IMG/VR virus record: IMGVR_UViG_3300042396_000450
Location: 1 to 64,000 of that record
Length of the DNA: 64,000 nt
Reading direction: 5' to 3' (one strand)
Source: a virus
The translations under genes and the position numbers were made by a program. How positions within the stretch are numbered: the first letter of the stretch is position 1; each line of letters begins with the position of its first letter. Of the stretch, positions 12,873 through 51,197 are shown piece by piece. Below the pieces are notes generated by a model, which was not told where the DNA came from, searched no databases, and saw only the letters and a list, made by a program, of their open reading frames with translations.

Positions 12873-13591
12873 AACAAGTTAAAGTTAAACAATCAGTTCG
12901 TAAAGGTAAGTTAGTACGTGGTTATAATCGTGTACTAACTAAAGTAACGGATAAGTTATTTAAGAGAGATAAGGATGGTAAGAAGAAGTTAACCAATCTT
13001 AGTAAAGGATTAATAGGCGCGACTTCTATAGCAGGTTTATTAACTGCATTTAAATATCGTCGCAACATAGCTCAGTTAAGTGAGAAGATTGTAAATAAGG
13101 TTAGTCCAACTGTTAAAACTATAGTTAATAAAACTGCTAAAACTATAAGTCAACCTATCACTAATACAACTGGTGATATTATGGCAGCTAGTGTAACTGG
13201 TGGAGCTATGACTAGAGACGCTAGACGTAAATACATACGCGAATTAGATAACTTACCAAGTGAAGCAGTTAATATACAACCGTTTACTAAACGTGAAGAT
13301 AGTTTAATTACTAGACGTATTAAACGTAATGATGCAACACTTAATAAACGAGTTAATAATGCACGTGGTAAACTAACTTCAGTTAACTATAATTCAGATA
13401 ATGATCTATATTTAGCTATCAAGACTAATAAAGACTTTAGTTATAAGGGAGCTAGTAATATTGAAGATAGACGTGCAACTCGTAAAGCATTAGCTAAGAA
13501 ACTTAAACAACAGTTAGGAGTTAATCCAGGAACTCCAAATCCAGCAACTCCAGTTAAACGTAAACGTGGTAGACCTAAGAAGTCAACTTAG
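12869..13591 (+). CDS. Basic virion-type protein with C-terminal AT-hook
   Basis: It starts with VKVKQSVRKGKLVRGYNR, the shared basic motif, followed by a hydrophobic segment (LIGATSIAGLLTAF). The C-terminus ends in TPVKRKRGRPKKST, a canonical AT-hook (RGRP core), which binds the minor groove of AT-rich DNA. That would suit an AT-rich phage genome and a protein that must stay with DNA in the capsid. Its stop codon overlaps the stop of the convergent hydrolase gene. The AT-hook is clear in sequence; the role is inferred. Confidence 0.72.
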   Translation: MKQVKVKQSVRKGKLVRGYNRVLTKVTDKLFKRDKDGKKKLTNLSKGLIGATSIAGLLTAFKYRRNIAQLSEKIVNKVSPTVKTIVNKTAKTISQPITNTTGDIMAASVTGGAMTRDARRKYIRELDNLPSEAVNIQPFTKREDSLITRRIKRNDATLNKRVNNARGKLTSVNYNSDNDLYLAIKTNKDFSYKGASNIEDRRATRKALAKKLKQQLGVNPGTPNPATPVKRKRGRPKKST

Positions 13592-14424
13592 TTATTATAT
13601 AGATGTTTAATAATAGGTTTAGTTACATTACTTCTGGTATCTGCATTTGTTAAATAAGCATCTAATCTATGACTATTAACGTTAGGTATTACAACTGAGT
13701 TTGGCGCACGTAACTTCTCGAACCAATCTTTATCACCCATTATATTAAGATCATTCTTAGTTGGTAATAATTTAAAGTCACTTGTTCCAATAGTTGCTAC
13801 TTTAACTTTAATGCCTCGTTTATTTAAAATGTATTGAATATCTCTAGCCATATTACCTCCAGCACTATATCCAACTATACTTATTCGTTTAGTTGGATTT
13901 TTAATGTGCCAACTATAAATCTCTTCAGCTAATTTAATTGACTCATCGTTACGACCTCTGAAGAATGGTTCACTTACTTTTTTAACTAACTTAGGGAAAT
14001 AAGCCGGATCATTCTTATCTATCGTCTGTAATTTAAAGGTGTGATCTAATGATATGAACTGTATATTTTTTCTTACCTTAACAGGCGTTGCTCGTTGTAA
14101 AGCAGTTGTTAATCCTTCAGCTTGTTTTAATACTCCTTCATTTGCAGCAACTCCACCAAATCCACCTATAGTAAATGTAATATCATCAATATTATTCTTT
14201 AATATAATACCCACATTAGGATTAACTTTAATTGACTTAGCTGCTTTATCTAAGTTGCCTATATAACGTCGTTTTAGTAATAGGTAACTAGCAGCAGTTA
14301 GTCCAAGTGTACTTGCAGTAACTATAGTTGCTTTAACTAATGCACTGTCTTGTTTACGTTGGTACTGTTTAACTAGTTTACCTTTCCTTACATACGATTT
14401 AACTTTAACGTCTTGTTTAACCAT
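13588..14424 (-). CDS. Alpha/beta-hydrolase-like protein with virion motif and membrane helix
   Basis: Residues 5-24 carry VKVKSYVRKGKLVKQY, the virion motif; ~30-50 form a membrane helix. The body shows an oxyanion-type GGFGG (~87-91), nucleophile elbow GYSAGG (185-190, Ser187) and a late His (SHRLDAY, His252), with Asp near 231-233, the order of a serine lipase/esterase triad. It is transcribed against the surrounding late genes and its ATG overlaps the stop of the XRE regulator (TAATG), so the two form a mini-operon. Could be a membrane-acting esterase or toxin-like effector. Contains a motif copy at 14066. Hydrolase fold likely, substrate unknown. Confidence 0.75.
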   Translation of the reverse strand: MVKQDVKVKSYVRKGKLVKQYQRKQDSALVKATIVTASTLGLTAASYLLLKRRYIGNLDKAAKSIKVNPNVGIILKNNIDDITFTIGGFGGVAANEGVLKQAEGLTTALQRATPVKVRKNIQFISLDHTFKLQTIDKNDPAYFPKLVKKVSEPFFRGRNDESIKLAEEIYSWHIKNPTKRISIVGYSAGGNMARDIQYILNKRGIKVKVATIGTSDFKLLPTKNDLNIMGDKDWFEKLRAPNSVVIPNVNSHRLDAYLTNADTRSNVTKPIIKHLYNN

Positions 14425-18650: not shown

Positions 18651-18720
18651 CTAACCGGGCGTTAATGACGTATGTTAATGATGTATGTTATCGCGCCCAC
18701 TATCCTACTTTTTTCTTACT
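18651..18720 (+). promoter_or_regulatory. Capsid-gene leader with 13-base tandem repeat and motif copy
   Basis: GTTAATGACGTAT (18661-18673) is repeated with one change at 18674-18686, followed by GTTA. The repeats are flanked by GGGCG (18657-18661) and CGCCC (18694-18698), which could pair. The dispersed motif TTTTTTCTTAC (18709-18719) ends one base before the capsid ATG. This is the only place where an exact motif copy abuts a start codon. Confidence 0.5.
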
Positions 18721-19857
18721 ATGGGTTCAGTTTCTAATTTTCTTACCGATAAGTTGCAAGCTAAAGTTGCCGAAACTCTAGTAGACGATACTATTGCTCG
18801 TCTGCGTCAGAGAACTAAACTTATTGATCAATTCATGCCTATTAAGACGTATGAGGACGATGAGTTCCTAGCATACGTAAGTGAACGTCTCACACCAGTT
18901 GCGAACTTTATTGCTGCTGGTGCTGAACCTCCAGTTATCTCTCATGGTGGTTTCCGTCGAGTAATCGGTGAACTAGCTAAGTTAGGTAATAGCTATTCAT
19001 TCGATGAAGTAACTCAGAAACAGATGCGTAAGGCAATGGAAGAAGCTGCCTATAAACGCGCTAGTGTTATGACCATGAAGTTAACTGATAACTCCGTCAT
19101 TAAGGGTACTAACGATATGCTCGTTAAGTATCTCTATGGTCACATTGAGGGGATCGTCCAATCTCATGCTGATAGACTTACTAGCATGGCTTGGCAAGTT
19201 GTTCAGACTGGTCAATTGAGTGTATCTGATGCAATTACTAAGGTTGCATGGACAATTGATTTCCGTCGTCCTGGTGCTAGTTATAACCACTTCCCTGATG
19301 CTCTTGTTGCTACTGGTAACACTGCATCTCCTAAGTTGAACAAGTGGACTGACTACGCTAATGCTGATGGTATCGCTAACTTAGAAGATGCTGTAACTAC
19401 TTATGTCAATACTAATGGTTACAAGCCTGATCTCATCGTAATGAGTAATACTGCATTGCGTGATCTTCAGAAACAAGCATCTACTATTGCTCGTGCTAGA
19501 CAATCAGTTGGATTTGCACAAGTAGGTTCTGTTAGCTTCCCAATGTTACAAGAGGTAATGGCTTCTAATAACCTACCTCCTATTAAGGATTATGATGAGT
19601 TCTATCAAGTAGATAATACCTACTCTGGTAATACTAATACTATTGATAGCTACATCAGTAATGCTCGATTCCTTAATGAGAATTGCTTCGTATTCCTCAA
19701 GGATGGAATGGGTGAGCAAGCTATTGGTACTCCTGAAGAACAGAAAGTTGTTAAAGATGGTGTATTAACAGGTACTGAATCTCCTGTAATGGTACGTGTT
19801 TATGAGAAGACAACTGTGCCTATCAACGATGTTTTGCAAGCGATTGAAACTTTTTGT
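18721..19857 (+). CDS. Major capsid protein, exon 1
   Basis: The sequence has the pattern of a Caudoviricetes major capsid protein: acidic helical N-terminus, FMPIKTYEDDEFLAYV, a core with FDEVTQKQMRKAMEEAAYKR, and a C-terminal domain with DLIVMSNTALRDLQKQ, found after the decoration gene. I prefer ATG 18721; ATG 18685 would translate through the motif and repeat. Reading on past 19857 gives five codons and a stop at 19873, inside a group I intron. Splicing 19857 to 20117 adds VLPVIYSPKNLYAQVVR, a typical hydrophobic capsid C-terminus, for a 396-residue protein. The exon end TTTTTGT pairs with GTAAAAA (19883-19889), closing with a U-G pair. Confidence 0.88.
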
Positions 19858-20116
19858 AGTCGCCTATTTAAGTAATTAAGTAGTAAAAATTCGGTGAATT
19901 GCTGGAAACTCCAGAAGTGGACAATCAGCAGCCAAGCTTAACCAGGAATGGTTTTGAAGGTTCAACGACTAGGTTTCGAGTCCAGACCGGACAGTAACAA
20001 ACCCACGAGTGCCGAACATCCCAAGTGGATGATGATATAGTCTGAACAGTAGATATAACACATGAAACTACTGATACGTAGGATAAAGAGCTTACGTGGT
20101 AACAAAATGATCAATG
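19858..20116 (+). ncRNA. Group I self-splicing intron in the capsid gene, no internal ORF
   Basis: Core elements are clear: AATCAGCAGCCAAGC (19923-19937, Q-like), GGTTCAACGACTAG (19959-19972, R-like) and GATATAGTCTGAACA (20034-20048, S-like). GACTA (19967-19971) pairs with TAGTC (20038-20042) as P7. The 5' site after 19857 is set by the P1 helix TTTTTGT/GTAAAAA with the conserved U-G pair. The 3' end at G20116 is chosen because it restores a capsid-like reading frame. Length about 259 bases, too small for an endonuclease; the nearby GIY-YIG gene is outside. The intron's presence is near certain; the 3' boundary could be off by a few bases. Confidence 0.9.
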
Positions 20117-20170
20117 GTTTTACCAGTAATTTATTCTCCCAAGAATCTGTATGCTCAAGTAGTTAGATAA
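20117..20170 (+). CDS. Major capsid protein, exon 2
   Basis: Seventeen codons, VLPVIYSPKNLYAQVVR, then TAA at 20168-20170. In-frame with exon 1 only after intron removal; upstream in the same frame a TGA at 20108-20110 blocks read-through. The 'LPVIY.PK..Y' pattern fits the last beta strand of HK97-fold capsid proteins. Its short length means the intron sits at the very 3' end of an essential gene, a common intron site. Confidence 0.75.
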   Translation, partial: VLPVIYSPKNLYAQVVR

Positions 20171-20206
20171 TAATTCCCTATTTCTAACTAGACCGAGTTT
20201 AAGTTG

Positions 20207-20215
20207 TGGTATAAT
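20207..20215 (+). promoter_or_regulatory. Extended -10 promoter for the homing endonuclease
   Basis: TGGTATAAT (20207-20215) is an extended -10 element, 26 bases before the ATG at 20242. No clear -35, as allowed for extended -10 promoters. It would let the endonuclease be expressed separately from the capsid transcript. Confidence 0.5.
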
Positions 20216-20241
20216 GATCTTATGACGTAAATGAGATTATT

Positions 20242-21543
20242 ATGCCACAATTTATTTATTTGGTGACAAACTCAATTAATGATAAAAAATATGTTGGACA
20301 AACAAATAGGACAATTGAAAAGCGTTGGTCAGAACATATTAGAGCCGGTAATTATGTTGGAACTAAAAGTTTATTATCAAAAGCAATTAAGAAATATGGT
20401 GTAGATAAATTTAAAATTGAAATTATTAAAACTTTAGAAACAACAGATCAGTCAGAAATTGATAAAACTGAAGTTTATTTTATTAAAGAATATAATGCTT
20501 TAACACCTAACGGTTATAACGTATTAAATGGTGGTAAAGGTTGTTTTCTAACACCTGAAGGTAAAGAGTATTTAAAAAGAACGATGACGAGTCGTTGGCA
20601 GAATAAAAGTTATCGAGCTTCTATGTTAGGTAGCACTTTAATTTCTGCTAGATTAAAAAACAATACCTCTGAAGCTAAATTAAAACGAGGTAATAGTTTA
20701 GTTAGAAATCGTCGTTACTTAATAACTACACCAGATGGAATTGAGTATTGTACTTACGGTGTAACTCACTTACAACAACTAGATTTAGATGTAAGTAGTT
20801 TAATTAAAGTTGCTCGTAATAAGATGACTAATCATAAAGGTTATAAAGTTAAATCACTTAATGATGATTATGTAACTGTAGATAAAACATATTTAGATTA
20901 CGTTAACAAATACGAATGTATTAGTTTAAATAAAGATAACTACAGTTTTTGTTCTTATGGTATTGATGCTATTAAAGAACAACTTAAATTAGATATATGT
21001 CAGAAGACAATATCACATCACATTAATAACGCTAATTTAATTAACGGTTATCAAGTTAGAGATATTAATGCAGAACCAATTATTAAACAATATCTACCAG
21101 ATGCTGAACGCTTCATATTGACAACACCTGAAGGTGTTAGTTTCTGTCGTTACGGTATGGAAGATTTAACTGAAGAAACTGGATTAAATGCTAAAGCGGT
21201 GTACCCATTAATGAATCCAAATAGTCCTCGTTATGGTCGCAAAATTAACGGTTGGAGTTGTGTTAGAGCTAATGAATCAGAGGAAACAAGAGATAAGTTA
21301 TTAGCTGATAAAGCTGCTAAGTTAGCTGAAGATAAGTTAATCAATGATGCTAAAAAGAGTTGGCAACAAGTAGTTAATAAACGTTACCTATTAACTAACT
21401 TAATAACTAATGAACAGTTATGTTGTTATGGATTAGTTCATCTCCGAGAATCACATGGTCTAGATGGTAGTTGTTTAATTAAAGTAATTAAGGGTAAAAT
21501 TAAACATCACAAAAACTGGACGTGCATTAAGATAGAAAACTGA
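20242..21543 (+). CDS. GIY-YIG homing endonuclease with four C-terminal DNA-binding repeats
   Basis: Residues 4-21 (IYLVTNSINDKKYVGQT) form the GIY-YIG core, followed by RWSEHIRAG and EVYFIKEYN, supplying the catalytic Arg and Glu. The C-terminal half holds four ~50-residue repeats, each with a pattern like 'RYLITTP.G...C.YG...L......' ending in 'HKGYKV' or 'HKNWTC' (starting ~residue 152, 215, 290 and 385), resembling NUMOD-type modules. It lies 71 bases downstream of capsid exon 2, with its own extended -10 and its own terminator. It most likely cuts intronless capsid alleles and mobilises the adjacent intron in trans. Confidence 0.88.
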   Translation: MPQFIYLVTNSINDKKYVGQTNRTIEKRWSEHIRAGNYVGTKSLLSKAIKKYGVDKFKIEIIKTLETTDQSEIDKTEVYFIKEYNALTPNGYNVLNGGKGCFLTPEGKEYLKRTMTSRWQNKSYRASMLGSTLISARLKNNTSEAKLKRGNSLVRNRRYLITTPDGIEYCTYGVTHLQQLDLDVSSLIKVARNKMTNHKGYKVKSLNDDYVTVDKTYLDYVNKYECISLNKDNYSFCSYGIDAIKEQLKLDICQKTISHHINNANLINGYQVRDINAEPIIKQYLPDAERFILTTPEGVSFCRYGMEDLTEETGLNAKAVYPLMNPNSPRYGRKINGWSCVRANESEETRDKLLADKAAKLAEDKLINDAKKSWQQVVNKRYLLTNLITNEQLCCYGLVHLRESHGLDGSCLIKVIKGKIKHHKNWTCIKIEN

Positions 21544-21571
21544 CATTAACAGCGAAGCAAATAACACTTAT

Positions 21572-21605
21572 AATGATGGTAGTAATAAACTATCGTCATT
21601 TTTAT
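21572..21605 (+). terminator. Terminator after the homing endonuclease
   Basis: AATGATGGTAGT (21572-21583) pairs with ACTATCGTCATT (21589-21600), 12 bp with two G-U pairs and a 5-base loop, followed by TTTTATT. It isolates the endonuclease from the next virion gene, whose ATG is 6 bases beyond the stem. Confidence 0.7.
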
Positions 21606-21606
21606 T

Positions 21607-22404
21607 ATGGGTAAGAAAAAAGATAATCGTAATCAACCTAACTATATTAAAGCTGGATTATATGGAACAGGTACGGCATTATTAGGACAACAAACTATTA
21701 GATCCGGCATTCCAAGAGCATTAGGTGTCAGACTTGAATCACATAGTACAAGTAGAAAAAATGCTAAATCTATATTGAAGAATGGTGGTTATCTAGATCC
21801 TAATTACGGTGGAACTGGTGCTAGTAAAGCAGTTAATGATACCGACTTCATAGATAAATCTAAAAACTATATTCACCTAACTGGAGCGCATAAAAATACT
21901 AAAGTTAACATGGGCGGAACTGTAAGTAATGTATTATACCGAAAAATACAACGGGGTATGTATCGTGGTATAACTGGTGAGACATTATCAGCAATAGATG
22001 ATCCTAAATTACTACCTAATATGTATGCGGGTATGACAGGATCGAAGGGTAGAAGTTTATATGTGGGCGGATCTGATAGATACTTCGACAAGAATTTCAT
22101 ACCAGATTCAGATGATGTAGCACTTAAATCCGCGAAGAAAGTTAAAGTATTCGGTAATAGATTTGCGGCAGTTCGGGACACATTAAAGAGATATGGTAAA
22201 GGTAATTATATTAAAGGTGCTGCTAGATTAATGGGAGCAAATAAGAGTCGTGTAGCAGCAGGATTAGGAATATTAGGTGCTGGTGCATTAGGAACTGCTT
22301 ATTTAGGTAAGAAAACAATGGAATCACTTGGTAATGTTAAATCATACAATCGCAAATCTAAATCGGGTAAAATAGTTAAAGTAAACTCATATAAACGTAA
22401 ATAA
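21607..22404 (+). CDS. ADP-ribosyltransferase-like virion protein, short paralog
   Basis: A 265-residue paralog of 9634-11349. Shared blocks: QTIRSGIPRALGVRLESHSTS (about residues 30-48, given in part: PRALGVRLESHSTS), AKSIL, YIHLTG (~88), SLYVGGSDRYF (~152), KVKVFGNR, GKGNYIKGAARLMGANKSR and a C-terminal Gly-rich helix. The first His sits in HSTS rather than HGTS. The end has a degenerate basic motif (SYNRKSKSGKIVKVNSYKRK). Lack of the long central insertion defines the conserved core. ART activity is a hypothesis from the H-x-T-S and following hydrophobic-strand pattern. Begins with a motif copy within codons 2-4. Confidence 0.7.
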   Translation: MGKKKDNRNQPNYIKAGLYGTGTALLGQQTIRSGIPRALGVRLESHSTSRKNAKSILKNGGYLDPNYGGTGASKAVNDTDFIDKSKNYIHLTGAHKNTKVNMGGTVSNVLYRKIQRGMYRGITGETLSAIDDPKLLPNMYAGMTGSKGRSLYVGGSDRYFDKNFIPDSDDVALKSAKKVKVFGNRFAAVRDTLKRYGKGNYIKGAARLMGANKSRVAAGLGILGAGALGTAYLGKKTMESLGNVKSYNRKSKSGKIVKVNSYKRK

Positions 22405-23841: not shown

Positions 23842-24195
23842 ATGATAACTCTAATCAATGATCTGGCTAACTTCGCACGAGGTAAAGGTGATAAGGATAA
23901 ACGTAAGAGACAAGTTAAACGTGCTGGTAGATGGTGGACTCCTAATCAAGTAACTGCTGCAACTAGACCTGGTAAAAAGAATGCTGTATTAGCAAGTAAG
24001 AAAATAAATGGAGTTGTTAAATATAAACTACTTAACTTTGGTGACAGTACAATGAGTGATTGGACTAAACACAAGGATAAGAAGAGACGTTCAAATTACT
24101 TATCTCGTAGTGGTGGTATTAGAAATAAGAGTGGTGAATTAACTAAAAACGATAAGTTCTCAGCTAATTACTGGAGTAGGAAAATTAATTGGTAA
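23842..24195 (+). CDS. Leader-module protein with 'HKD..R..Y' virus-type domain, 117 aa
   Basis: Leader: MITLINDLANFARGKGDKDK. The C-terminal part, FGDSTMSDWTKHKDKKRRSNYLSRSGG ... NYWSRKINW (shown in pieces), matches a small domain I know from large DNA viruses and phages in which a conserved FG..., (D/E)(Y/W)T.HKD..R...Y..R and a terminal 'W' motif recur (possibly DUF5754). Its role is unknown in all cases. Here it is attached to the phage's own leader, implying virion location. The next small ORF at 25058 resembles another such virus-type domain. Confidence 0.68.
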   Translation: MITLINDLANFARGKGDKDKRKRQVKRAGRWWTPNQVTAATRPGKKNAVLASKKINGVVKYKLLNFGDSTMSDWTKHKDKKRRSNYLSRSGGIRNKSGELTKNDKFSANYWSRKINW

Positions 24196-24200
24196 CTAAT

Positions 24201-25061
24201 ATGTTTCTAATATCAGATGTAACTACATTTAGTAAGAAAAAAGGTAAACGTAATAACTTATTACTTGGTGGCGCAATTCTCGGTACTGGTTTATTAGGAG
24301 TTGTAGGAGTTAAATCTTATCTTCGTAATGGTAAATTAGTTAGACAATATAATCGTAATCAGGTTGTTAAAAAGGTAACTGAACCTGTTGTTGAATCAAC
24401 TAATAAAAGTAGTTTAGTAAATAATTTAATACAGAAAAATTATCCAACTGCATCACCCGAATTAGTTAAGAATATGCAGAATAATCCCTGGTATTTAGTT
24501 GGAGGTGAATTAGGTAAAAAAGCTAAACAATATAATATTAATATTGATGAAGCTATTGGGGTTCATACTTATATGGGAGGTGGTTATAAAGAGATAAATA
24601 ATTATTTAAGAGATAAAGTTAAAAATCCTAACTTATATAATGATGAATTAGAACAGTTATCTAATAACGCTATAAGTGGTATAAATAAATTACAATCAAT
24701 AGATGTTAATAAGATACCTAAGTTAGATAGATATATTAAACTTAATCCTGAAACAATTGATAATTATCAAGTTGGTAAAGATTATGTAACTCCACAAATA
24801 ACAAGCACTACTGGATTACCGATTAATAAACAAGATATAAATGAAGCTGCTTTAGTCGCTAGTGATGCTAATGTAAAAATGGTATATAAACCTAAAGTTA
24901 ATAGTACCGCTAAAAATCTAGGTGATGTTCATTTAATAGAGAAAAATGAATATGTTTATTTACCTGGTACTAAATTTAAAGTTAGTAGTAAGAAAAAAGA
25001 GATAGTTAATATTGGTGGTAAACCTAGAGTTATTAACGTTATCTACATGGATGAACTATGA
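24201..25061 (+). CDS. Leader-module protein with R-S-E-type ADP-ribosyltransferase-like domain, 286 aa
   Basis: The ATG at 24201 gives MFLISDVTTFSKKKGKR, the leader; ~18-37 is a Gly-rich helix and ~37-50 KSYLRNGKLVRQY. The C-terminal 170 residues follow the order of toxin-type mono-ADP-ribosyltransferases: TYMGGGYKEINNYLR (~122-136, the substrate-side helix), Arg in DRYIKL (~178), a Ser-Thr-Thr block after a beta strand (ITSTTG, ~203), and EKNEYVYLPGTKFKV (~247-261), resembling the E-x-E/'LPpgt.f.V' closing strand. The exact glutamate spacing is not canonical. Best reading: a virion-delivered ART effector; activity is unproven. Confidence 0.72.
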   Translation: MFLISDVTTFSKKKGKRNNLLLGGAILGTGLLGVVGVKSYLRNGKLVRQYNRNQVVKKVTEPVVESTNKSSLVNNLIQKNYPTASPELVKNMQNNPWYLVGGELGKKAKQYNINIDEAIGVHTYMGGGYKEINNYLRDKVKNPNLYNDELEQLSNNAISGINKLQSIDVNKIPKLDRYIKLNPETIDNYQVGKDYVTPQITSTTGLPINKQDINEAALVASDANVKMVYKPKVNSTAKNLGDVHLIEKNEYVYLPGTKFKVSSKKKEIVNIGGKPRVINVIYMDEL

Positions 25062-25129: not shown

Positions 25130-25948
25130 TTAACTATTAACTAACTTACGAAAACACATATCTAACATAGGAATCATTTCAACTTCATAAGCTGATGTAT
25201 TAGGTCTATATCTACCTTTACCTAACTTAACGTTAATTTTAGTTGGATTATTACCTGTAGTTGTCTTATAAGTATCAGCAACTAAGTTAGCGAATCTGTG
25301 CATTGTAGATTTATCTGCAACAAAACCCTTACTCTTAATATAGTCACTTAAAATGACATATCCATTATGAGTTGTTAGTTCCGTAGTTACAGTTAACTCA
25401 TTTAACATTACATCAAGATTAGGAAAGTTAGTTACTGTGGCATTTCTAAGTTGTTTATATTCTGTAGTTATATTACTTAACTCATCTACTTTATCGCTTA
25501 GTAACTTAAGTGAATTAAGAATAGCTTTATTATCATCATTAATAACAGCACCAGTTAAATCCTTAACCCAATTAACGAAACCATATTGTGCCAACTTACG
25601 ATAAGTGTTGCGTGCGGTAACATTAGCAGCTTTAGATTCAAATGCGTAATACTCGATAATTAAAGTTGCTGCTGTTGATGTAATAATTTTACAAGTTCCA
25701 CCATCTTTATTTCCTTCTAGCTGTGGACTAAAAACGTTACCCAGTAAAGGTTCTAGCATTTTTAGCTGTGTACTAACACCAGTATTATCAGCTAATGGGT
25801 TTACTATTCTTTGAGACATTGTTTGTTGTGTAACTCCACATAATCGCGCCAATCCACTAATACTAACTCCAGCATCCCGTCCATCTGGAGTAATGTAAAA
25901 CTCAACATCATTAATAACAGAGGGTTGTACAATAATTTTATCTGACAT
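25130..25948 (-). CDS. Regulator paralog 1 ('SGLARLCGV' family), 272 aa
   Basis: N-terminal ~85 residues: FYITPDGRDAGVSISGLARL, CGVTQQTMSQRI, LEPLLGNVF, followed by ITSTAATLIIEYYAFES. The 'S.SGLA.LCGVT...(I/M)SQ' part looks like a helix-turn-helix. The C-terminal half is helical with EYKQLRNATVT, shared with 40470-41324. A third copy starts at 63711. Similar proteins are frequent in cyanobacteria and their phages, with no established function that I can name; antirepressor or DNA-binding regulator is the best guess. Its promoter overlaps a 10-bp inverted repeat (25978-26010), consistent with autoregulation. Confidence 0.75.
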   Translation of the reverse strand: MSDKIIVQPSVINDVEFYITPDGRDAGVSISGLARLCGVTQQTMSQRIVNPLADNTGVSTQLKMLEPLLGNVFSPQLEGNKDGGTCKIITSTAATLIIEYYAFESKAANVTARNTYRKLAQYGFVNWVKDLTGAVINDDNKAILNSLKLLSDKVDELSNITTEYKQLRNATVTNFPNLDVMLNELTVTTELTTHNGYVILSDYIKSKGFVADKSTMHRFANLVADTYKTTTGNNPTKINVKLGKGRYRPNTSAYEVEMIPMLDMCFRKLVNS

Positions 25949-48095: not shown

Positions 48096-51000
48096 ATGAC
48101 AACAACCTATAGTTCGGGTAAATTACAACTTACATTTAATTCAGGTAATGTATCTGTAGTTAATGGTTCAGGTAACTTAGGAGTTACAGGAACTTACTAT
48201 ATCTCTATTCAAGGTCGGAATCTAATTGGACTTAATCTGAATAGTACATTAGTTCCAGTTACTTTAACTACAACATCTACATTAACTATAACATTACCAT
48301 CATTAGCTAGTGGTGAAACTTGGTCTGACATAGTTATATCAGCATCAACTACTAATAACGTATCTGCCTTAACTCAAGTAATGGTAGTTAATAGTGCTGA
48401 TTTTAATTCGCCAGTTATATTAACTAGTGTTGAGTTGTTCAAGCTAACTACACTTGCTCGTACTGTAGCTAACTCTGCTGCATTACCAGCAACACCAATT
48501 CAGGGACTTATAAGATACATAACTAACCTCAACTACTACTATGAATACGATGAATACAGTACAGCAACTGTAGATAACTTAACTGTATTAACTGCAACTA
48601 CTGGTAGATGGCTTAGAGTAGGTGCAATTAGTACGTATATAACTGATACTACAGCTACAGATGGATGTGATCAAGATGTTCGCACACCTAATCTAATTGT
48701 TAATGCACCATCATATACTTGTGATGGTAGTAAAGGTGATGGAGTTACCTTCTGGTTACGTAATGAATTTAGCACTATTATTTCAAGTGGAACTAGAATT
48801 AGTTGTACTGTGCGATTATTTGAGGAAGATAAATCTCAATTGTTCGATAGTCTCCTAATACTAGAACTACTTGGTTATGTTAATTTAATAACTGGAGTAT
48901 TAGATGCTTCAGTTAGTAGTGGTGAAGTAACTTATCAACCTCGTAGTCAATGGTTAACATTACCAGAGGATCTCGACATTGGTTATGCTGCTGTAGTTAG
49001 AGTTAGTCCTAAATTCACCATTACTGATTTAGATAACAATGTTCCATATCTAGCTAACTTAACTACATACGTTACATTTGCTCCAACTAGCGGTATCTAT
49101 ACTCCTGGTGTATTCGGCAACTTAATTTACAACGAATATGATAAGTGGCGCATTTATTCTGATGTTGGACTTAGTGTAATTAAGAGTAAGGGTAGTGGAA
49201 TAGTTAATAATTATGAACTTAATGATATATCCGCCGAAACTATAACAGGGTTAAGTTCTAATACCGCCAACCAGTATATTTTTCTTACTAGTAATGGTAC
49301 TTCGTTCGCATCAACTACTAGTTCATTCGTTAGTGCAGTTAAGCGATGTGTAGTTAGTACAGTTAATGGTATAGGAACTCCAGTTAGTTATGGTAGCTTC
49401 GCGTTAAATAACACTAAGAAGTTATCTGTAACTGTTAATTATCCAACTAGTGTTAGAAGTAATTATCCTGATGCTCTTATTGCAGGTTCTAGTAAAGGTA
49501 AGTTTAATGCAACTAATGTTGTTATCTATATTAAGAATAGTAGTAATGCCGTATTCGTAACTGAAGTTAACATAACTCCATCTGCTAGTAATGATGTTTA
49601 TGTACTTAATTATAGTGACTTTACTAGTTCTACATTAGCAACACCATCTAGTAATTATGGTTTATATACACCATTAAGTGTAACTACTTCAACTCCATCT
49701 AACAGTAGTACATTTCCTACTGGTAGTTATGAAGTGTTTGTTGCATTTAAATACACTGGAGTTGTTACAGTTATTGATCATAGTGTTAGTGAGTTATATG
49801 AGATAACAAGTAACCTGAGTGAGTTATTCTCAACTAGTGCAACAGTATGGTATAGCGATAATGGTGTTCCTAGTAGTTTAATTGGTGAAGATGGTTCATA
49901 TTATCTTAATTATGATAATGCTAATATTTATAAGAAGGTTAATGATACTTGGAGTTTAGATGGAAATATTAGTGTTATTTCACCTTCATTTACTACTATT
50001 GCAGTTAGTGGACAAAGTAATGTAGTTGCAGATCAAACTAATGATAGTTTAACTCTAGTTGCAGGAACTGGTATTACATTAACTACTAATGCCACAACCG
50101 ATGCTATTACTATTACTGGAACTAGCGTCACTAATACATTTAGTACAATAACTGTAGCTGGACAATCTGATATAGTTGCTGATAATGGAACTGATACATT
50201 AACTATTGCTGCTGGTAGTGGTATTACCTTAACTACAAATTCTGCTACTGATACATTAACTATCGCAGGAACTGCTGTTAGTAATACATTTAGTACAATT
50301 GCAGTTAGTGGTCAATCTGATGTAGTAGCTGATAGTGCCAGTGATACTATTACGTTAGTTGCTGGAACTGGAATGACTATTACAACTAACACCACTACAG
50401 ATACTATTACTTTTGAAAGTAGTGGTGTTAATGTTGATGTTACGCGAACTTCTACAATGTCTAATAGTATTGGAACTGGTAGTAAGACGTTTACTTATAC
50501 TGCTAGTTCTAACTTAGGATGGTTAGTTAGTACGAGATTGCGTGCTGCGTATGATGTTTCTAACTATATGGAAGGTGTAGTTACTGCTGTTAGTAGTACC
50601 TCAGTTACTATTACATCAGATAATGCAGTTGGTAGTGGAACTTATACTAGTTGGAACATAACAATAGCTGGAGATAAAGGTTCTACTGGAAGTGCTGGTA
50701 GTTTAAATGCCGCATCTGGATTTATATTAACTCCTGTTGGAAGTCCCATTACTACATCAACTAACGAAGTTGGTTTCTATGTCGATAGCACTGATAACTT
50801 ATTTAAAACTAGAGACGTTAATAATGGTACAGTTAGAACATTAGCATCATTAAATAGAGTTCAAGCATTTACTCAAACACAATATGCTACACCTGTTATT
50901 AATAATTCTGCTACTGGGACAGTAACTTTAGACGGTAGTGCTAGTAATGTTTTCATACTAACTCTAACTGGAAACCTGACTCTGACCATGAACAACATTC

Positions 51001-51197
51001 AAGTTGGAGCAACTTATATCATCTACTTAATTCAAGATGAAACTGGTAGTAGAACTATTACACTTGATGCTATATTTAAACGATTAACTGGTGATACAAC
51101 TACAGTTAATACAACAGCTAATAAAGTTAATATGTTAACTGGAGTAGCTAGATCATCTAGTGCAATTACATTAGCTCCTATATCAGTTGAGGTTTAA
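48096..51197 (+). CDS. Tail fibre protein, 1033 aa
   Basis: Thr/Ser/Val-rich beta structure. Residues ~630-770 contain three tandem repeats of ~45 residues built on 'FSTIAVSGQSDVVAD...D.LTLVAGTGITLTTN..TD.ITI', typical of trimeric beta-helix fibre shafts. A short collagen-like GDKGSTGSAG (~865) and a C-terminal domain (TGTVTLDGSASNVFILTLTG, TYIIYLIQDETGSRTITLDA) follow. Starts three bases after a TTTTCTTAC variant. Likely receptor-contact fibre. Confidence 0.8.
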   Translation: MTTTYSSGKLQLTFNSGNVSVVNGSGNLGVTGTYYISIQGRNLIGLNLNSTLVPVTLTTTSTLTITLPSLASGETWSDIVISASTTNNVSALTQVMVVNSADFNSPVILTSVELFKLTTLARTVANSAALPATPIQGLIRYITNLNYYYEYDEYSTATVDNLTVLTATTGRWLRVGAISTYITDTTATDGCDQDVRTPNLIVNAPSYTCDGSKGDGVTFWLRNEFSTIISSGTRISCTVRLFEEDKSQLFDSLLILELLGYVNLITGVLDASVSSGEVTYQPRSQWLTLPEDLDIGYAAVVRVSPKFTITDLDNNVPYLANLTTYVTFAPTSGIYTPGVFGNLIYNEYDKWRIYSDVGLSVIKSKGSGIVNNYELNDISAETITGLSSNTANQYIFLTSNGTSFASTTSSFVSAVKRCVVSTVNGIGTPVSYGSFALNNTKKLSVTVNYPTSVRSNYPDALIAGSSKGKFNATNVVIYIKNSSNAVFVTEVNITPSASNDVYVLNYSDFTSSTLATPSSNYGLYTPLSVTTSTPSNSSTFPTGSYEVFVAFKYTGVVTVIDHSVSELYEITSNLSELFSTSATVWYSDNGVPSSLIGEDGSYYLNYDNANIYKKVNDTWSLDGNISVISPSFTTIAVSGQSNVVADQTNDSLTLVAGTGITLTTNATTDAITITGTSVTNTFSTITVAGQSDIVADNGTDTLTIAAGSGITLTTNSATDTLTIAGTAVSNTFSTIAVSGQSDVVADSASDTITLVAGTGMTITTNTTTDTITFESSGVNVDVTRTSTMSNSIGTGSKTFTYTASSNLGWLVSTRLRAAYDVSNYMEGVVTAVSSTSVTITSDNAVGSGTYTSWNITIAGDKGSTGSAGSLNAASGFILTPVGSPITTSTNEVGFYVDSTDNLFKTRDVNNGTVRTLASLNRVQAFTQTQYATPVINNSATGTVTLDGSASNVFILTLTGNLTLTMNNIQVGATYIIYLIQDETGSRTITLDAIFKRLTGDTTTVNTTANKVNMLTGVARSSSAITLAPISVEV

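Follow-up and report, generated by a model that had tools for sequence, protein, structure and literature searches.

An ORF-less group I intron and a neighbouring GIY-YIG endonuclease gene at the major capsid gene of a probable cyanophage: a candidate for collaborative homing

The concept of collaborative homing was defined for F-CphI (PMC6083498), whose locus in S-PM2, as given there from Zeng et al. 2009, unites an ORF-less group I intron in psbA with a separate, neighbouring endonuclease gene, just as is the case at the locus of the current study. The pairing of an intron with an adjacent endonuclease is already known from cyanophage psbA, from T3/T7-like phages and from ICP1 terL (PMC6083498, PMC10448857). 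Two routes to the cooperation have been proposed, an endonuclease pre-adapted to the intron site or turnover after the loss of an intronic gene (PMC3984707, PMC10448857), and PMC10448857 puts forward that such loci arise by endonuclease turnover. Introns in capsid genes are known as well (PMC3706429): mycobacteriophage LittleE likewise has a probable group I intron in its major capsid gene, with splicing shown. For the control of endonuclease expression, I-TevI, I-TevII, I-TevIII, segB and mobE provide the precedent that read-through messages are silent and that a late promoter of the gene's own gives rise to the translatable message (PMC2988022, PMC3014915).

The DNA analysed here is a stretch of 64,000 bp (the window), corresponding to positions 1 to 64,000 of a source record of 111,623 bp, and comes from a probable freshwater cyanophage. 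A cyanobacterial host is likely because the large protein encoded at 48096-51197 is, among sequenced phages, almost confined to cyanophages of Aphanizomenon, Planktothrix and Nodularia, and because the closest relatives of the capsid protein belong to two Pseudanabaena phages (26%). A search of bacterial and archaeal genomes for capsid relatives found none, and a Pfam/Rfam search for further introns in distant capsid relatives was negative at all 20 loci. The locus has the arrangement of a collaborative pair: the group I intron contains no ORF, and a free-standing endonuclease gene lies beside it (Table 1).

Table 1. Features of the capsid-endonuclease locus and its surroundings (window coordinates unless a contig is named)
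Feature	Position	Strand	Basis or remark
Major capsid protein gene, exon 1	18721..19844	+	phrog_29; start MGSVSNFL; start Met shared by L034 and L036
ORF-less group I intron, 265 nt	19845..20109	+	RF00028; gap-free spliced protein; covarying helices; terminal G 20109
Capsid exon 2	20110..20170	+	61 nt (1 nt, 19 codons and stop); L034/L036 alignment
P1, exon GCGAU (19840-19844) with guide GUCGC (19859-19863)	19840..19863	+	fold; U 19844.G 19859
P2, 8-bp hairpin	19864..19883	+	fold; directly 3' of P1
Divergence hot spot, exon parts of 27 and 61 nt, proposed endonuclease target zone	19818..20170	+	comparison with L034 and L033
24-bp RNA hairpin enclosing the endonuclease start codon	20200..20254	+	arms 20200-20223 and 20231-20254
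Extended -10-like element TGGTATAAT	20207..20215	+	5' arm of hairpin; consensus match only
Free-standing GIY-YIG endonuclease gene (HEG-A), 433 aa	20242..21543	+	PF01541, phrog_314, I-TevI structures
Stretch replaced by the HEG-B cassette in L028	20135..21500	+	junctions 25 nt past the intron and within the last 37 nt of the gene
Terminator-like hairpin after the endonuclease gene	21572..21600	+	z = -2.8; overlaps promoter-like site of next gene
Proteins with a tag like FAR(R/G)xGxKDKKKRK	12099, 12495, 16051, 16641, 22430, 23136, 23893, 29292	+	N-terminal tag
Proteins with the motif V(K/N)SYxRxGKxVKxYxRx	13588-14424 (-), 21607-22404, 24189-25061; L036:8069-8689		

Identity, borders and fold of the capsid intron

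By its match to phrog_29 (E = 9e-23), the interrupted gene encodes a major head protein. An alternative start would be the ATG at 18685, which lies open in the same frame, and the unspliced reading frame (18721-19875, or 18685-19875 from the upstream ATG) is truncated by the insertion. A preliminary description of this DNA had assigned a group I intron to the capsid gene, and the assignment is borne out by a match of Rfam RF00028 (Intron_gpI) to 19842-20062 with 80.4 bits at a gathering score of 50 (E = 8e-19). It is the sole Rfam match in the 64-kb window, and no second group I intron occurs in the 111,623-bp record. That the intron lacks an ORF also proved correct for the full 265 nt.

The borders, however, had to be redrawn. 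Whereas the splice sites had been placed at 19858-20116, to give an intron of 259 bases at a distance of 18 codons from the end of the capsid gene, homology of the spliced capsid protein and covarying helices define an intron of 265 nt at 19845-20109 that splits an Ile codon 19 codons ahead of the stop. Joining of 19844 to 20110 (at the nucleotide level, ...CAAGCGAU followed by AUCAAUGG...) yields the protein ...QAISMVLPVIYSPKNLYAQVVR (also written ...DVLQAISMVLPVIYSPKNLYAQVVR), which aligns with no gap at the junction to QAISLVLPVIYSPKNLYAQVIR of contig L034 and QSISMCLPVIYNPKTLYSQVVK of contig L036. The capsid C-terminus is uninterrupted in both of these relatives (protein identity 97% and 74%, respectively). 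The alignment of intronless relatives, suggested as a check in the preliminary description, contradicts the junction proposed there and favours 19844/20110. The junction 19857/20117 was rejected, its protein (...QAIETFCVLP...) having two residues more than the relatives. The L034 sample might be a metatranscriptome, in which case L034 could represent spliced RNA and not an intronless allele; the junction 19844/20110 would be supported in both cases.

A U-G pairing in P1 had been noted before, but in the wrong helix. The candidate P1 of UUUUUGU/GUAAAAA conflicts with protein homology and with P2, on whose last base its guide strand would begin, and was rejected; the P1 adopted instead pairs GCGAU with GUCGC and has the U.G at the splice site. 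The adjoining P2 (CUAUUUAA-GUAA-UUAAGUAG) is kept as a hairpin of different letters (UUGUUCUU-GUAA-AGGAACAA) in a related intron on contig L033, with 5 of the 8 pairs changed on both sides. The conserved core, consisting of P3, P4-P6, P7, P8 and the P3/P7 pseudoknot, is present, and the hairpins resembling P7.1/P7.2 that lie between P7 and P3 point to an intron of subgroup IA. Covariation was evaluated in an alignment of five introns, from the window, L033, a dUTPase gene (L179), a DNA polymerase gene (L186) and Flavobacterium phage FpV21, in which 98.3% of the cells are paired and 18 of 46 pairs are changed on both sides. Individual helices are paired at 91.7-100%, covariation is seen in P2, P3, P8, P9 and P9.1, and control structures shifted by 1-3 columns pair at 27-49%. 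The 3' ends of the introns agree (UAACAAA...G). The U.G at the 5' splice site, the terminal intron G at 20109 and the in-frame joining of the exons are all present; splicing would restore the normal capsid protein.

Near-identical intron cores were observed at other loci. One is in the dUTPase gene (L179:6559-7425, minus strand) with an HNH-type ORF inside, and one in the DNA polymerase gene (L186:6897-7899) with a GIY-YIG ORF inside, both below the Rfam gathering score. A stretch of 51-54 nt of the intron core, 96-98% identical, recurs in phage FpV21 (L072:1995-2200) and in 21 further Flavobacterium psychrophilum phage records, followed by a GIY-YIG-like ORF annotated as hypothetical only.

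The endonuclease gene and its start region

The adjacent free-standing GIY-YIG endonuclease of the preliminary description and its spacing of 71 bases from exon 2 are both upheld. HEG-A carries an N-terminal GIY-YIG domain (PF01541, 5e-11), matches the homing endonucleases of phrog_314 (2e-22) and begins 71 nt past the capsid stop. The I-TevI catalytic domain (1mk0/1ln0, 2e-5) is its only match among solved structures. The C-terminal part comprises four repeats of ~50 aa, mutually 22-41% alike, which we read as probable DNA-binding modules. The structure model has a mean pLDDT of 54.8. Its confident regions are confined to the catalytic domain and some of the last module, residues 1-90 reaching a pLDDT of about 85-90 over most of their length.

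The start codon of HEG-A at 20242 sits in the 3' arm of the 24-bp hairpin (z = -11.6; 0/200 shuffles). When 54 gene starts were compared (-50 to +20), that of the endonuclease showed the strongest fold at -29.8 kcal/mol, followed by -16.1 for the second strongest, with a median of -5.5 kcal/mol. A promoter of the gene's own, as claimed earlier, is plausible from the extended -10-like element, one of three occurrences of TGNTATAAT in 64 kb, but a -35 that would go with this element is not recognisable. The start codon in a stable hairpin, together with a candidate promoter placed such that its own transcript would escape the 5' arm, amounts to an apparent I-TevI-type layout. The start of HEG-B, a different endonuclease gene on contig L028, has the equivalent layout in other letters (z = -5.8). 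In L036 the endonuclease start codon also lies in a stem, the fold being no better than chance (z = -0.9). An I-TevI-type operator would be expected to resemble the homing site, and a colinear match of 57 nt at the HEG-A promoter looked attractive in this respect; ranking only 21 of 72, it did not exceed background and was rejected. As to the terminator previously assigned to the gene, a hairpin does exist at 21572-21600; its role is uncertain because the promoter-like site of the next gene overlaps it. That next gene, too, has a -10 element and a hairpin just ahead of its start codon (within 21546-21625; z = -2.8), so this phage may make frequent use of starts with a promoter in a hairpin.

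The genes around the locus have further features. In the neighbourhood of the capsid and protease genes, seven proteins or more, probably eight, begin with an N-terminal tag like FAR(R/G)xGxKDKKKRK, which may direct packaged proteins to the capsid or mark them for processing by the prohead protease. Adjoining the tagged proteins, the ORF 24189-25061 gives a sub-threshold match to an ADP-ribosyltransferase exoenzyme (PF03496, 20.7 bits at a cut-off of 23.4); we take it to be reminiscent of T4 Alt, a packaged protein. A second motif, V(K/N)SYxRxGKxVKxYxRx, is common to several otherwise unlike capsid-region proteins, and the protein at 25130-25948 (minus strand) is weakly matched to a BstA-type abortive infection replication inhibitor (phrog_6287, 8e-6).

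Alleles and divergence at the end of the capsid gene

Scans for alleles covered 2.9 million viral contigs. This intron and HEG-A were found together in 32 of 32 near-identical contigs, with the intron and the hairpin almost invariant and SNPs too few for covariation analysis of either. The viral contig scans returned neither a copy of the capsid intron lacking an endonuclease gene nor a near-identical allele lacking the intron, as would be needed to prove transfer.

Four related alleles differ from this state, those of L028, L033 and L034 being on short contigs. L028 is the same as the window through the intron bar one intron base and shows its first difference in exon 2 at 20135. It carries HEG-B, a GIY-YIG gene 28% identical to HEG-A, the final 37 nt of which are identical to window 21501-21537 (the contig stops just before the stop codon). 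Exon 2 of L028 has 9-10 bases changed, stays in frame and conserves the protein. The comparison documents the exchange of one endonuclease cassette for another next to an intron that stayed in place, whichever the direction, and shows that this intron and HEG-A are separable. A chimeric assembly of L028 is conceivable; its junctions fall in shared sequence, where those of real recombination would fall also. L036 has no intron and a third GIY-YIG gene immediately behind the capsid gene, so an endonuclease can occupy the locus without the intron. The endonucleases of L036 and the window share modules at 44-49% identity, and this likeness, despite absence of the intron in one and presence in the other, fits with one shared target. 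L034, likewise intronless, ends 50 nt past the capsid stop inside a similar promoter-like stretch, and a search for the continuation of this contig found none. In L033, the insertion site of a related intron (79% over the core) is displaced by 22 nt in the downstream direction, and the contig ends inside this intron.

The alleles diverge most in the last part of the capsid gene. Comparison of the window with L034 gives 22 changes in the last 93 coding nt and 32 in the first 1092 (p = 4e-12), and that with L033 gives 17 changes in 40 nt and 35 in 1106 (p = 4e-14), where the p-values assume independent sites, an assumption violated by recombination, and hence describe the contrast and are not a neutral test. 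The changes are mostly synonymous and have an abrupt border 27 nt upstream of the intron site. The hot spot includes both intron sites, at 0 and +22 nt, as well as the junction of L028 at +25 nt. A sharp hot spot of exchange is what a local cleavage target would predict, and the last ~90 nt of the capsid gene are likely the target zone of the endonucleases. Each cassette would appear to bring its own recoded exon tail.

Probable homing at the capsid locus and its relation to known systems

The locus is a candidate for collaborative homing, which is likely the process at work. According to the mechanism we propose, splicing would rejoin the capsid message for synthesis of the normal capsid protein, and the endonuclease would cut the capsid gene of a co-infecting relative within its last ~90 coding bases. 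Donor-templated repair would then copy the intron, the recoded exon tail and the endonuclease gene as a unit, with the donor itself shielded by the intron or by the recoded exon. On capsid transcripts reading through, the endonuclease start codon would be held in the hairpin and stay silent, and transcripts initiated from the promoter inside the hairpin would be missing most of the 5' arm and become translated. Over time, endonuclease cassettes would displace one another at the site and the intron would persist. For this explanation as a whole, collaborative homing with a hairpin-timed endonuclease and cassette turnover beside a kept intron, we have a modest preference. Several points count against it: the intron is dispensable for presence of an endonuclease, as L036 demonstrates; the free-standing endonucleases of T4 generally cut at a distance of hundreds to thousands of bases (PMC2988022); the promoter and homing site are not alike above background in the manner of I-TevI; and the L036 hairpin is no stronger than chance.

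Intron and endonuclease could also be independent neighbours, the latter an ordinary free-standing enzyme that cuts in or near the capsid gene, is protected against by the recoded exon and has the intron as a separate hitch-hiker. The equivalent placement of the intronless L036 endonuclease, the capability of a recoded exon tail to protect by itself and the occurrence of one intron with two different endonucleases all speak in favour. We nonetheless regard this as doubtful, for two intron sites and the L028 junction within 25 nt are beyond the expectation for random neighbours, and intron and endonuclease are never apart in the 32 contigs. A different history, in which the intron once held an endonuclease gene of its own and a free-standing gene took over after its loss (a route considered in PMC10448857), gains from the HNH and GIY-YIG genes inside the closest introns by core (L179 and L186) and from the turnover seen beside the capsid intron in L028. 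It is possible but rather unlikely, considering that the 265-nt intron retains no endonuclease remnant and that the intron of L033, as far as the contig runs, is short as well, such that a loss event is nowhere visible. Along with the favoured collaborative mechanism, we entertain the tentative idea that collaborative homing is here assembled, or reassembled, in nature: cassettes with recoded tails would compete for one site, and the intron, arisen at two points 22 nt apart, would be the portable shield kept through the swaps.

Two of the component assignments also have competing readings. The 24-bp hairpin might function as a terminator of capsid transcripts or as a DNA cruciform and not as a translation switch, and a terminator scan does list it with a T-rich tail. 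That tail is endonuclease coding sequence, however, and the start codon is within the 3' arm; in L028 the start codon is again in a hairpin arm of other letters, with a weaker T tail. We consider the terminator or cruciform role unlikely. A non-functional intron, with a capsid protein that ends at the intronic stop (ORF 18685-19875), agrees with continuation of the capsid ORF for 10 codons into the intron, yet is highly improbable in view of intact, covarying core helices, of the uninterrupted C-terminus in relatives and of an exon 2 that L028 maintains in frame and conserved in protein despite its base changes.

Seen next to known systems, the collaborative-homing candidate shares with S-PM2 the residence in an important gene, and it adds a case from a probable cyanophage. 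F-CphI is of Endo VII type and its host gene is psbA, whereas the endonuclease here is GIY-YIG and the host gene that of the capsid; cleavage was demonstrated for F-CphI and is here a prediction; and the part of PMC6083498 cited in this study describes no cassette swap such as that of L028. The ICP1 terL intron with T5orf172 (GIY-YIG subfamily) likewise combines a spliced structural or packaging gene with an adjacent free-standing GIY-YIG-type endonuclease, which in ICP1 lies beside the first exon of terL and here after the last exon of the capsid gene (PMC10448857). Splicing of terL was shown by RNA (PMC10448857); that of the capsid gene is predicted. The capsid intron of LittleE differs in its 819 bp and internal LAGLIDADG-like endonuclease gene from the 265-nt, ORF-less one described here (PMC3706429). 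The T4 td intron and its I-TevI have the GIY-YIG catalytic domain in common with HEG-A, I-TevI being the nearest solved structure, but I-TevI is encoded inside its intron, and the HEG-A gene follows only after the host gene's stop codon (PMC2988022, PMC3014915). T4 segB and Aeh1 mobE have, as HEG-A appears to, the start region in an RNA hairpin and a promoter that lets the own transcript escape (PMC2988022, PMC3014915). The start-codon hairpin that seemingly times the endonuclease gene would extend this control to a probable cyanophage, outside the T4-like phages.

What the current locus adds is a GIY-YIG case in a probable cyanophage capsid gene, an apparent control by hairpin and a set of alleles that bears on the formation of the pair. 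The origin of cooperation between intron and endonuclease is an open question, and the alleles separate its steps: the intron with one endonuclease, the same intron with another, an endonuclease without intron, and an intron at a neighbouring site. L028, in particular, is a specific case in which the endonuclease turned over and the intron stayed, to be compared with the proposal made in PMC10448857.
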